A stretch of DNA of 64,000 nt, taken from positions 744,001-808,000 of the forward strand of contig NHBK01000009.1 in NCBI GenBank assembly GCA_002173095.1, read 5' to 3'. This DNA is from Hyphomonadaceae bacterium TMED5 (GTDB lineage: Bacteria; Pseudomonadota; Alphaproteobacteria; Caulobacterales; Hyphomonadaceae). Shown piece after piece: positions 36,261 to 40,151 of the stretch. The position numbers were made by a program, and so were the translations under genes. Numbering within the stretch: the first letter of the stretch is position 1; the number at the start of each line of letters is the position of its first letter. Under the pieces are notes generated by a model. The model was not told the DNA's origin. It ran no database searches and saw nothing but the letters and a program-made list of their open reading frames with translations.

Positions 36261-36440
36261 TTTTTCCAGCGTGCGCAAAAAAGTCCTTTCTCTTGAGCCT
36301 GACGGCGCGAAAATAGTCTCAATTCCAACGCAATCTTACATGATAAGCCAGGATTAGGGTGTTCGGGCGAAATGTTATTGACCCGCCGCCAAGTCTTTGA
36401 GACTAAACGTCCTACGACGGGACGTTCTGCGGAGGCTGCC

Positions 36441-37835
36441 ATGGAACCTGATAAAGAGCTTGAGCAGCCCGTAGAGCCGGAGCTGACAGAAGACCAGATC
36501 GAGGCCGAACAGGTCGCAGAGCTTGAGGCCGCGATCGAAACGGGCCGTCCGGGTGAAATCCTCGACGTACTTGAACAGCACCACCCGGCGGATGCCGCAG
36601 ACCTGTTGGAAGTCCTGCCGCGTACCATGATTGGCAATGCGACGGACATGCTGGCCGATCGCTTTCCAACCGAGATCCTGCTTGAGCTTCGTGATGAGTA
36701 TCGCGAACTTGTCGTGGATCGCTTGCCTGATGAGTTCCTTGCCGAAACGCTGAATAATCTGGATTCAGATGACGCGGCCGTTCTTTTGGACGATCTCGAG
36801 GAGGAGCGTCAGGCTGATATTCTGAAAGGCCTTGATCGCAGCGAACGCGAAGAGCTCGAACGCGTTCTGGCCTTTGATGAAGAAACCGCTGGTCGTCTGA
36901 TGCAGCGCGATTTTCTGGCGGCACCAGAATTCTGGACCGTCGGCCAGACAGTTGATCACGCACGTGACCATGCCGACGATTTGCCAGAATCCTTCTTCGA
37001 AATTTATGTCATCGACCCAGCCTTCCGTGTGCTGGGAGCGGTATCGCTGCACACTATTCTGCGTAATCAGCGGTCTGTGCCGCTGGGCGAGATCATGCAT
37101 CCGATCGAGATCGAGATCAGCCCGGATATGGACCAGGAGGAAGTCGCCTACGCCTTCCAGAAATACGATTTGACGTCTGCGCCGGTTGTCGATGAATCTG
37201 GTCGGCTGACAGGTATGGTTACGATTGATGACGTTGTTGACGTTATTCAGGAAGAAAACCGCGAAGACCTTCTGGCGCTGTCAGGTGTCTCCTCATCGGA
37301 AGCGCTGGATACGGTTTTGTCGACCTTCCGGTCACGTGCGCCATGGTTGGCGGTCAACGTTTTCACGGCGTTCATCGCATCCATGGTGATATCCATCTTT
37401 GATGCTACGATTGAGCGTATCGTCGCTCTGGCCGTTCTGATGCCTGTGGTCGTCGCACTTGGTGGTAATGCCGGGTCTCAGACGTTGGCCGTTTCAGTGC
37501 GTGCTCTTGCAGAGCGAGAGCTTTCAGGCACCACGACCCGGCGAACCATTGTGAGAGAAGCGCTGAACGCTTTGATCAATGGTATCGTCTTCTCTCTCGC
37601 TGTGGCTGTTATTGCCTGTTTCTGGTTCCAGGATATTCGGCTGTCCGTGGTCATTGCGCTCGCAATGCTGGCGACTTTTATGTGGGCTGGTCTGTCTGGA
37701 ATTATCATTCCGCTGACCCTGAAACGCCTTGGAGCTGACCCTGCCGTAGCGTCGTCAGTCTTTTTGCTGACCACAGTCGATATTATAGGCTTTTTAAGCT
37801 TTTTAGGCCTTGCCACCGTCTTCCTGATACCGTGA
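36441..37835 (+). CDS. mgtE: Magnesium transporter MgtE
   Basis: A 464-residue transporter. The cytoplasmic N domain (about residues 30-150, DVLEQHHPADAADLL), paired CBS domains (about 150-280) that sense Mg2+, and five C-terminal membrane helices including the pore motif PVVVALGGNAGSQ (about residue 340) are all present. It takes up Mg2+ down the membrane potential. The start at 36441 has GGAGG six bases upstream; the frame is open to 36372 without homology. I saw no obvious Mg riboswitch in the preceding 180 bp. Confidence 0.95.
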   Translation: MEPDKELEQPVEPELTEDQIEAEQVAELEAAIETGRPGEILDVLEQHHPADAADLLEVLPRTMIGNATDMLADRFPTEILLELRDEYRELVVDRLPDEFLAETLNNLDSDDAAVLLDDLEEERQADILKGLDRSEREELERVLAFDEETAGRLMQRDFLAAPEFWTVGQTVDHARDHADDLPESFFEIYVIDPAFRVLGAVSLHTILRNQRSVPLGEIMHPIEIEISPDMDQEEVAYAFQKYDLTSAPVVDESGRLTGMVTIDDVVDVIQEENREDLLALSGVSSSEALDTVLSTFRSRAPWLAVNVFTAFIASMVISIFDATIERIVALAVLMPVVVALGGNAGSQTLAVSVRALAERELSGTTTRRTIVREALNALINGIVFSLAVAVIACFWFQDIRLSVVIALAMLATFMWAGLSGIIIPLTLKRLGADPAVASSVFLLTTVDIIGFLSFLGLATVFLIP

Positions 37836-37910
37836 ATACTTAGGCGGTAGGTTTCGAACTTGCATGTCTTAGGTCAGAAAGCGCCACACTGTGCCAGAAA
37901 GAAGCAATTC

Positions 37911-40151
37911 ATGGGTCAGGTAAACCGAATTTCACAGACCGGTCTTGAGCTAATCAAGAATTTCGAAGGTCTTCACCGTCGTTCCGAACGTCTTCCTGAT
38001 GGGGGGTGGATCGTAGGATATGGACACACACGTTCAGCCCGTGAGGGCGTGGAGGTTACAGAACGCGAGGCAGAATATCTGCTGCGTTATGACCTTCAGG
38101 AAACCGAACGTCTTGTCTCCAATTCTGTCCTCGCGCCGCTGAACCAGAATGAGTTCGATGCACTCGTTTCCTTCGCATGGAATATTGGCAAGGATGCTTA
38201 CCTCGCCAGCGATGTGCTGAAATATGTCAATTCCGGTGAGATGCTGGCCGCAGCCGAAAGCTTTGGCGCCTGGCGTAAGGCAGAGATTGATGGTCGCCTT
38301 ATTGTTCTGGATGCGCTTGTCCGCCGTCGTGCGGCTGAGAAGAATATGTTCCTCAGCCACCCGTCAGGTTCCCCTGCAGCACCAAGCCTGATCATCAAGC
38401 CAAAGCTCGATACGGCTGCGTCTGTATTGGCGCTGGCCGATGGCGCGCTTTCCATCGAAAACCGTTTGACCGAAGAAGCTCGCGAAAGTGCGGCTAATGC
38501 CAGCCTGCCTTATGTGCAGCAGGCCGCGAACAGCAATGGTGAGACGACTGAAGAGGTTGGCGACACTGAGCCTGAAGCCGAAGCGGCAGCTGACCCAGCT
38601 GAAGACCTTATCGAAGATGAAGCTGACGAAGCAGAATCCATCGACTCGCTGATCGCTGACGCGGTTTCTCAGGATGCTGAAGCTGAACCGGTGGAAGACG
38701 AAGCGATCGAAGAAGCTGCGGAAGACGCAGAAGCCGAGATTGCTGAGGCTTCAGATGCAGACCCTGCTGACGACGCTGATACCGAAGACGCAGTAGAAAC
38801 TGTCGAGACTGCAATTGTCGAAGACGCTGAGGCGACTGACGCGACTGAGGAAGACGATAGCGAAACGACTGAAACAGAAGAGCCATCTACTGCTGAACCA
38901 TCCATCTGGGATGCGTCAGACGACATGGCGTTTGACGAAGCCGATGAGGATGATGAGGAAGACAGCGAGAGCCTGGTAGATGATACTCTTCTCGCGGCGG
39001 CGATCGCTGCATCTAACCTCTCTCGCCGCGATGACGAACCTGAAGACGCTGATACAGAAGCGGAAGTAGAAACAGACACGGATACGGCAGAGTCTGAAGA
39101 CGAAACCGAAGAAACTGATGAAGCGGCCGAGGGGGTGCTGCTTTCCCCCGCTGGCTTTCGCCAGCCAGCAGGAACCTTCGACGAGCCCGCCAGATCAGTT
39201 GAGTCAGATGAGGACACGGCTGAGACGTCCGAAAGTGGCGAAGACACGTCTGAAGAAGCAACGGACGACGCCATCACGCCTGAGGAGATCGAGGTCTCCG
39301 AGGAGCTAGATGAGGACGAAGACGATTGCGTTGTTGAAGAAGTAGAGTCTGAAAGTGATGACGCTGCTTCCGACGCTGATGTTGAGCTGGAAGACGCCGT
39401 CATTGCTGACGCTGATGTCGACGAAGCAAAATCTGAAGACGCAGAAGCGGAAGAATCTGAGGCGGTTTCAGAAGACGGCAGCGCAGATGACGTGGAAGCT
39501 GAAACGGAAGAAGCTGAAGACCTTCCTGAGCTGACTGAAGCTGAGGATGAGGCTGATGCTGAGGCTGATGCTGAGGCCGAGGAAGATTCGGAAGCGGCTG
39601 GCGAAGTTGTAGGAGAATTGCCGGAACTCACCGAAGCTGAAGCGACAGAGGAAGACATCGCCCAGGCAGATGCGGTCGAGGAAGAGGTCGCCCTGGCTCT
39701 GGTCGAGGATGCTGAAGATTCTGGCGCTGAAAAAGATGGCGAAGGTGGCATCTGGCAAGTGCCGGCAGAAGATGCGCTCGACGAAGACCATGAGCTGACC
39801 GAAGAAGAAGCTGAAGCTCGCCGCGTGACCATTGTTGACCCGCTGGTTTCAGACCACTTCCCGGGCGAAGACAATGGTGTCGACTATGTCGAGCCAGTTG
39901 AAGATATCTCTGGTGGTCGACCAACGGCTGCTGGCTTCTGGTTTGGTGTCTTCCCATTCATCCTGCTCGCTTTACTTGGCGGTGCGATGTGTGTGTTCGG
40001 CGCGATGGATTGGGCTGGGCTCATTCAGTCTGAAACGCCAGTGGATGAGAGCCAGCTTTATGCCGGTCCATTCCTGACGCTGATCGGCGGCTTTGGTCTG
40101 ATCTTTGGCCTGTACTTCATGTTCCGAAAGCTTTCGGGCGCTGAAGACTGA
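37911..40151 (+). CDS. spmX: SpmX-like polarity protein: muramidase-fold domain, giant acidic domain, two C-terminal TM helices
   Basis: A 746-residue protein. Residues 1-150 are a GH24 (T4 lysozyme-like) fold with the catalytic-type Glu19 (LIKNFEGL) and the VGYGHT turn; where the active Thr is expected (WTIGYGH in hydrolytic relatives) it reads WIVGYGH. Residues about 200-660 are a very acidic, low-complexity stretch of Asp, Glu, Ala and Ser. Two membrane segments follow (about 676-700 and 717-736). This order is that of Caulobacter SpmX, a stalked-pole marker that binds PopZ and recruits the kinase DivJ. No signal peptide is visible, consistent with a cytoplasmic N-terminus. The acidic domain is much longer than I recall for Caulobacter (whole protein about 430). 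The start is chosen at the family-like MGQVNRISQTG. Confidence 0.82.
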   Translation: MGQVNRISQTGLELIKNFEGLHRRSERLPDGGWIVGYGHTRSAREGVEVTEREAEYLLRYDLQETERLVSNSVLAPLNQNEFDALVSFAWNIGKDAYLASDVLKYVNSGEMLAAAESFGAWRKAEIDGRLIVLDALVRRRAAEKNMFLSHPSGSPAAPSLIIKPKLDTAASVLALADGALSIENRLTEEARESAANASLPYVQQAANSNGETTEEVGDTEPEAEAAADPAEDLIEDEADEAESIDSLIADAVSQDAEAEPVEDEAIEEAAEDAEAEIAEASDADPADDADTEDAVETVETAIVEDAEATDATEEDDSETTETEEPSTAEPSIWDASDDMAFDEADEDDEEDSESLVDDTLLAAAIAASNLSRRDDEPEDADTEAEVETDTDTAESEDETEETDEAAEGVLLSPAGFRQPAGTFDEPARSVESDEDTAETSESGEDTSEEATDDAITPEEIEVSEELDEDEDDCVVEEVESESDDAASDADVELEDAVIADADVDEAKSEDAEAEESEAVSEDGSADDVEAETEEAEDLPELTEAEDEADAEADAEAEEDSEAAGEVVGELPELTEAEATEEDIAQADAVEEEVALALVEDAEDSGAEKDGEGGIWQVPAEDALDEDHELTEEEAEARRVTIVDPLVSDHFPGEDNGVDYVEPVEDISGGRPTAAGFWFGVFPFILLALLGGAMCVFGAMDWAGLIQSETPVDESQLYAGPFLTLIGGFGLIFGLYFMFRKLSGAED

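Follow-up and report, generated by a model that had tools for sequence, protein, structure and literature searches.

A SpmX ortholog with a long, highly acidic disordered region in a Ponticaulis-like member of the Hyphomonadaceae

SpmX is a textbook example of how a lysozyme of the phage type has become a polarity scaffold. Its disordered region provides a bacterial condensate that is amenable to experiment. A phage-lysin origin and a 'detoxification' of SpmX are reportedly claimed in the title of Randich et al. 2019, as listed in PMC12364344. Here we ask whether a long reading frame in a 64,000-nucleotide stretch of a Hyphomonadaceae genome (the whole stretch is called the window below) encodes such a scaffold or a lytic enzyme, and how its long acidic middle region compares with that of other SpmX proteins. 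The main features of the locus are as follows.

36372..37835, forward strand: mgtE-like gene directly upstream of spmX, a syntenic marker found upstream on the same strand at almost every spmX locus examined in the order
37849..37863, forward strand: sigma-54-like -24/-12 site AGGTTTCGAACTTGC (GG-N10-GC), located 62 bp 5' of the ATG and in the same place in six Ponticaulis
37911..40151, forward strand: spmX coding sequence, 746 aa (ORF, Pfam, NCBIfam, ML tree, synteny)
37911..38360, forward strand: GH24 muramidase-like domain, residues 1-150 (PF00959; AF2 model against 6h9d; catalytic columns)
38361..39941, forward strand: disordered hyper-acidic region, residues 151-677, net charge -187 (composition, AF2)
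39927..40148, forward strand: C-terminal transmembrane hairpin, helices 673-701 and 718-741 (hydropathy; AF2 block pLDDT 62-87)

A conserved gene in the spmX neighbourhood

The window's assembly is 3.55 Mb in size and 99% complete; among named organisms, its closest relatives are Ponticaulis. The reading frame runs uninterrupted from the ATG at 37911 to a stop at 40151. The gene was found in 5/6 genus mates; the single genome without it is 87% complete. Across five other Ponticaulis genomes the GH24 domain is 81-84% identical to that encoded in the window (82-84% for P. koreensis and other Ponticaulis records), and spmX is under purifying selection in the genus. Conservation in these five genomes together with purifying selection indicates that the frame is not a chance ORF. 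It is a real gene, the SpmX ortholog of a Ponticaulis-like member of the Hyphomonadaceae.

The neighbours of spmX in the window are lipB, mgtE, a histidine kinase with its response regulator, marR and ilvE. Across the order, an mgtE-like gene is found upstream of spmX in the same orientation, either adjacent or a short distance away, and in most loci (Caulobacter-type, Asticcacaulis and other families) lipB follows beyond it on the opposite strand. The window matches this lipB-mgtE-spmX neighbourhood, which is also the gene order in Caulobacter crescentus. The same layout was seen in the relatives examined from the window's own family, to which Hyphomonas neptunium SpmX (HNE_1271) and the other Hyphomonadaceae proteins belong.

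The window shares a sigma-54-like site upstream of spmX with C. crescentus. It matches 6/10 consensus positions, and its location is conserved in all six Ponticaulis. Order-wide, an element matching at least 8/10 positions was detected in 81/117 spmX upstream regions, compared with 3.6 expected after shuffling, and in the examples listed the GG-N10-GC element lies 51-69 bp before the GH24 start. TacA works together with sigma-54. The upstream site is in line with the published TacA-dependent transcription of C. crescentus spmX (PMC7010744).

Lysozyme-like domain, topology and identity

The sole Pfam match on the 746-aa protein is Phage_lysozyme (GH24, PF00959), at residues 16-143 (E=5.8e-32). 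Hydropathy gave exactly two hydrophobic segments, about 678-696 and 720-738, both C-terminal, and no signal peptide, SAR helix or earlier hydrophobic segment over the 746 aa. Together with AF2, these results bear out the SpmX-type architecture (GH24, acidic middle, two C-terminal TM helices) read from the sequence in the first-pass annotation. C. crescentus SpmX (NF051871) has the same arrangement of GH24, disordered acidic region and two TM helices.

Modelling of the GH24 domain had been proposed at first pass as a check; an AF2 model from a deeper alignment reached a block pLDDT of 82-98. The best PDB match of this model was 6h9d, the muramidase domain of Asticcacaulis excentricus SpmX, with 51-52% identity by structure alignment and a TM-score, by target length, of 0.94-0.96; identity to the Caulobacter-type proteins L062-L063 is about 53%. 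On alignment to two phage lysins, 8app and 6et6, the positions of the Glu-Asp-Thr triad of GH24 endolysins correspond to E19, L28 and I34. The catalytic Glu19 is retained, and the triad is incomplete, with Leu28 at the Asp position and Ile34 at the Thr position, in WIVGYGH. The change at the Asp position had gone unremarked at first pass. The Ile had been read correctly from the sequence, but it is not the special sign it was taken for: among 117 aligned Caulobacterales SpmX, Glu is found in 117/117 and Asp in 2/117, and the Thr position holds T in 36, I in 34, V in 32 and other residues in 15. Compared with C. crescentus SpmX the window protein has Ile, not Thr, at this position, and it shares Leu at the Asp position with A. 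excentricus SpmX and L056-L059. Lineage-specific inactivation through Ile was rejected since the Thr position varies family-wide, as Asp loss is family-wide, and the active-site changes are ancestral or recurrent in SpmX.

The protein could instead be an active muramidase or endolysin, whether the remnant of a prophage or a bacterial lysozyme directed at the cell wall. PHROG endolysin profiles also match it and, like the GH24 fold and the retained Glu19, would fit such an enzyme; residual muramidase activity is possible given this Glu. However, neither a signal nor a SAR sequence is present, the catalytic Asp has been replaced, and lysis genes are absent among the neighbours. In an ML tree of 141 GH24 domains, one clade (support 99/91) united the window protein with 6h9d and the proteins encoded at SpmX loci of the order; it left out the phage lysins as well as the second GH24 families present in some Hyphomonadaceae. 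The deep phage branches of this tree are weakly resolved and we claim no sister group for SpmX. C. crescentus SpmX showed no detected activity in vitro, and its E19R variant abolishes oligomerisation and partner binding (PMC5347347). A lytic enzyme is therefore very improbable; a prophage lysin was rejected on the tree, the neighbourhood and the missing export signal, and the earlier preference for SpmX over a phage endolysin is upheld by the tree. The cytoplasmic N-terminus without an export signal and the published work on SpmX are stronger pointers to a non-lytic role than the active site.

The best NCBIfam match was the SpmX equivalog NF051871, at 186 bits, missing the curated cut-off of 700 bits. 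For comparison, Asticcacaulis L057 scored 214 bits and Caulobacter-type SpmX 816. The GH24 domain of L057 is at zero tree distance from 6h9d, a proven SpmX. As this protein reaches only 214 bits, the cut-off gauges closeness to Caulobacter and is not a biological definition of SpmX; the model is Caulobacter-specific. Separately, a second chromosomal GH24 family (L125-L133, in Hyphomonadaceae genus g10) carries the motif WLIGYGH, forms its own clade (100/100) and is not SpmX.

The GH24 fold, the tree clade, the lipB-mgtE-spmX order, the sigma-54-like site and the presence of PopZ in the genome all agree on SpmX orthology. With a probability of nearly 90%, the window protein is SpmX: a polar scaffold that is cytoplasmic, anchored in the membrane and derived from a lysozyme of the phage type.

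The acidic middle region and its motifs

Between the end of GH24 and TM1 lie 527 aa with 38% D+E, 4.4% P and a net charge of -187, or -0.35 per residue. The acidic stretch had been put at about 450 residues at first pass, a figure that fits the strongly acidic core and falls short of the full stretch. AF2 run on four Ponticaulis sequences gave pLDDT <50 for residues 128-669, a segment in which only short helices were predicted (168-176, 191-194 and 359-368); this is consistent with disorder. The four-sequence model is shallow, and its low pLDDT at 128-150 is due to the thin alignment.

The region is far longer than that of C. crescentus SpmX (about 215-230 aa), as the first-pass annotation had noted. 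It also exceeds the 360-472 aa of other Ponticaulis and the median of 214.5 aa among 114 SpmX, a non-independent set drawn from few families and weighted to Hyphomonadaceae. A record length was nevertheless rejected, and 'giant' does not hold as a unique trait: four Asticcacaulis proteins, the only ones of the 114 to exceed the window protein, have middle regions of 550-645 aa, and an Asticcacaulis expansion of 'over 370 amino acids' is published and linked to stalk positioning (PMC4460556). The net charge per residue of this region is the most negative among the 114 SpmX, with other Ponticaulis at -0.30 to -0.32, Caulobacter-type proteins at about -0.09 and Asticcacaulis at -0.05 to -0.07. 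The difference from C. crescentus is nearly fourfold, and the region is also proline-poor by comparison. High acidity was found in all six Ponticaulis species despite sequence turnover. Repeat expansion as the DNA origin of the long middle was rejected, as just two small, low-scoring repeat arrays were found. For the SpmX family, changes at the muramidase site and long disordered regions as such are already known; extreme acidity and motif turnover in Ponticaulis SpmX, both derived here purely from comparing sequences, are, as far as we could find, undescribed. The earlier reading is thus partly supported, having recognised SpmX correctly and placed its emphasis on the wrong features.

The enlarged region might specialise SpmX for positioning a stalk or some other structure of the envelope, as in Asticcacaulis, where the other large expansion described in the literature goes together with recruitment of SpmX as a stalk-positioning factor (PMC4460556). 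Both lineages have a lineage-specific long disordered region. Also in favour of this reading, they occupy different parts of the tree with short-linker relatives between them, indicating that the expansions were separate. The compositions, however, differ wholly: the Asticcacaulis regions are near neutral, with charged R/E/L repeats in L057, whereas those of Ponticaulis (-0.30 to -0.35 per residue) are D/E-rich with almost no Arg. A literature search also returned nothing on stalk placement in Ponticaulis. We consider stalk placement unlikely.

Three short elements stand out within the middle region.

38379..38459, forward strand: post-GH24 motif APSLIIKPKLDTAASVLAL..., about residues 157-183, with a predicted helix at 168-176 (profile; helix in both AF2 models)
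38901..39038, forward strand: Ponticaulis-specific conserved island, SIWDASD (331-337) ... DDTLLAAAIAASNLSRRDDE (357-376) (pN/pS; AF2 helix 359-368)
39828..39863, forward strand: C-terminal motif TIVDPLVSDHFP, about residues 640-651 (recognisable in six Ponticaulis sequences)

The post-GH24 motif APSxxxRPxxDxAA is common to the SpmX family, C. crescentus included (APSxxxRPxxD), and is kept in the window; a profile finds it directly after GH24 in many other SpmX. Two further helix-like motifs were seen within the otherwise disordered regions of L012-L055, L063 and others: H1 (xTxEAAARAVxERLTRILGE), for example STEAAARHVKDRLTRILGE, or TATEQSAAAVAARLEAILPE in the Caulobacter-type L063, and H2 (PSxDEITRAVSALA), for example PSVDEITRAVSELA. 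Both were picked out visually in the 117 SpmX sequences on which they were then scored, so that the counts describe that set. At >8 bits the H1 profile detected 58/117 SpmX (37/46 non-Ponticaulis Hyphomonadaceae and 21/65 others), and the H2 profile detected 38/46 non-Ponticaulis Hyphomonadaceae and none elsewhere in the set. None of 585 shuffled decoys reached the 8-bit threshold for H1 or H2. By contrast, neither motif was detectable at 8 bits in Ponticaulis SpmX (0/6). Genera g10 and g4 carry degenerate look-alikes of H1 and H2 below threshold, so absence in Ponticaulis is to be read as 'not detectable'. The idea that H2 mimics the N-terminal helix of PopZ (EPTMEEILASIRRIISED, similar by eye) was rejected on negative profile scores.

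In place of H1 and H2, all six Ponticaulis SpmX carry SIWDASD followed about 20 residues later by DDTLLAAAIAASNLSRRDDE. In this island pN was 0.04-0.12, compared with 0.34-0.58 in the flanking disordered region, at a similar and nearly saturated pS of about 0.65-0.8; the island is thus constrained as strongly as the GH24 domain. Its helix at 359-368 is the only one that AF2 predicts in the acidic core. Searches found no significant match to the island among other SpmX and no second copy in the genome. Homology of the island to H1 or H2 was rejected (hhalign probabilities 0.4-3%). For the C-terminal motif TIVDPLVSDHFP, strong constraint (pN 0.02) was seen only against the closest group.

The disordered region of C. 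crescentus SpmX reportedly contains one predicted helical island, proposed to drive tetramerisation (PMC5347347). H1 is a candidate for this island, and H1 and H2 together give testable candidates for it. The Ponticaulis island may in turn replace the lost motif or motifs as a self-association or partner-binding helix. We tentatively suggest, at clearly less than even odds, that the interaction code of Ponticaulis SpmX has been rewritten: H1 and H2 were lost, and a genus-specific helix in a hyper-acidic chain of doubled length took over self-assembly or kinase capture, in an expansion separate from that of Asticcacaulis and of different chemistry. Alternatively, length and acidity may be neutral drift of a permissive linker without functional consequence, which would be compatible with SpmX identity. 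Most of the disordered region is indeed fast-evolving (pN 0.34-0.58), its length ranges from 360 to 527 aa within the genus, and the DNA repeats are short and low-scoring only. The retention of acidity in all six species and the GH24-like constraint on the island argue against drift, which we regard as possible but doubtful. If the rewritten code is true, it gives natural pairs for relating disordered-region length and charge to condensate behaviour at the bacterial pole. A separate, far more acidic expansion with family motifs swapped is a natural experiment on whether length, charge or short helices matter.

PopZ, DivJ and a possible mechanism

In C. crescentus, PopZ is bound by the lysozyme-like domain of SpmX, and the negatively charged region weakens this contact 5-fold (PMC5347347), contrary to the earlier suggestion that the acidic domain binds PopZ. 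DivJ binding and oligomerisation there belong to the disordered region, which lengthens the stay of DivJ at the pole, stimulates this kinase and promotes phase separation (PMC8849385). The formation of DivJ foci depends on SpmX in H. neptunium, which belongs to the window organism's family (PMC7200025). By analogy with these two species, the same division of labour would be expected in the window's SpmX, with polar localisation, binding of PopZ and DivJ, and condensation. The GH24 domain would serve for protein binding and self-assembly and would dock onto PopZ at the old pole. Multivalent assemblies would be formed by the acidic disordered region, which would also hold the DivJ kinase, and the C-terminal hairpin would anchor SpmX in the inner membrane.

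DivJ is divergent in Hyphomonadaceae, and in H. neptunium divJ can be named only by synteny (PMC7200025). In the window's genome, the DivJ model NF050805 gave no match above its cut-off of 1000; the best, at 246 bits, was an 832-aa kinase whose length suggests PleC.

PopZ is encoded in 30/30 genomes tested, including the window's own, where popZ (L123, G000:C7:52965-53162) is flanked by a TolC-like outer membrane efflux gene on one side and a valS-like gene on the other. SpmX and PopZ acidity correlated across the 30 genomes (Spearman 0.57), falling to 0.42 (p=0.13) over 14 genus means. Charge co-evolution of the two proteins was dropped, as the relationship was not significant by genus mean and phylogeny may explain the correlation. 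Three PopZ proteins of Hyphomonadaceae genus g3 (L192, L196 and L197) are 353-357 aa long, roughly double the usual size, compared with 149-261 aa in the other 27, and have an enlarged acidic middle.
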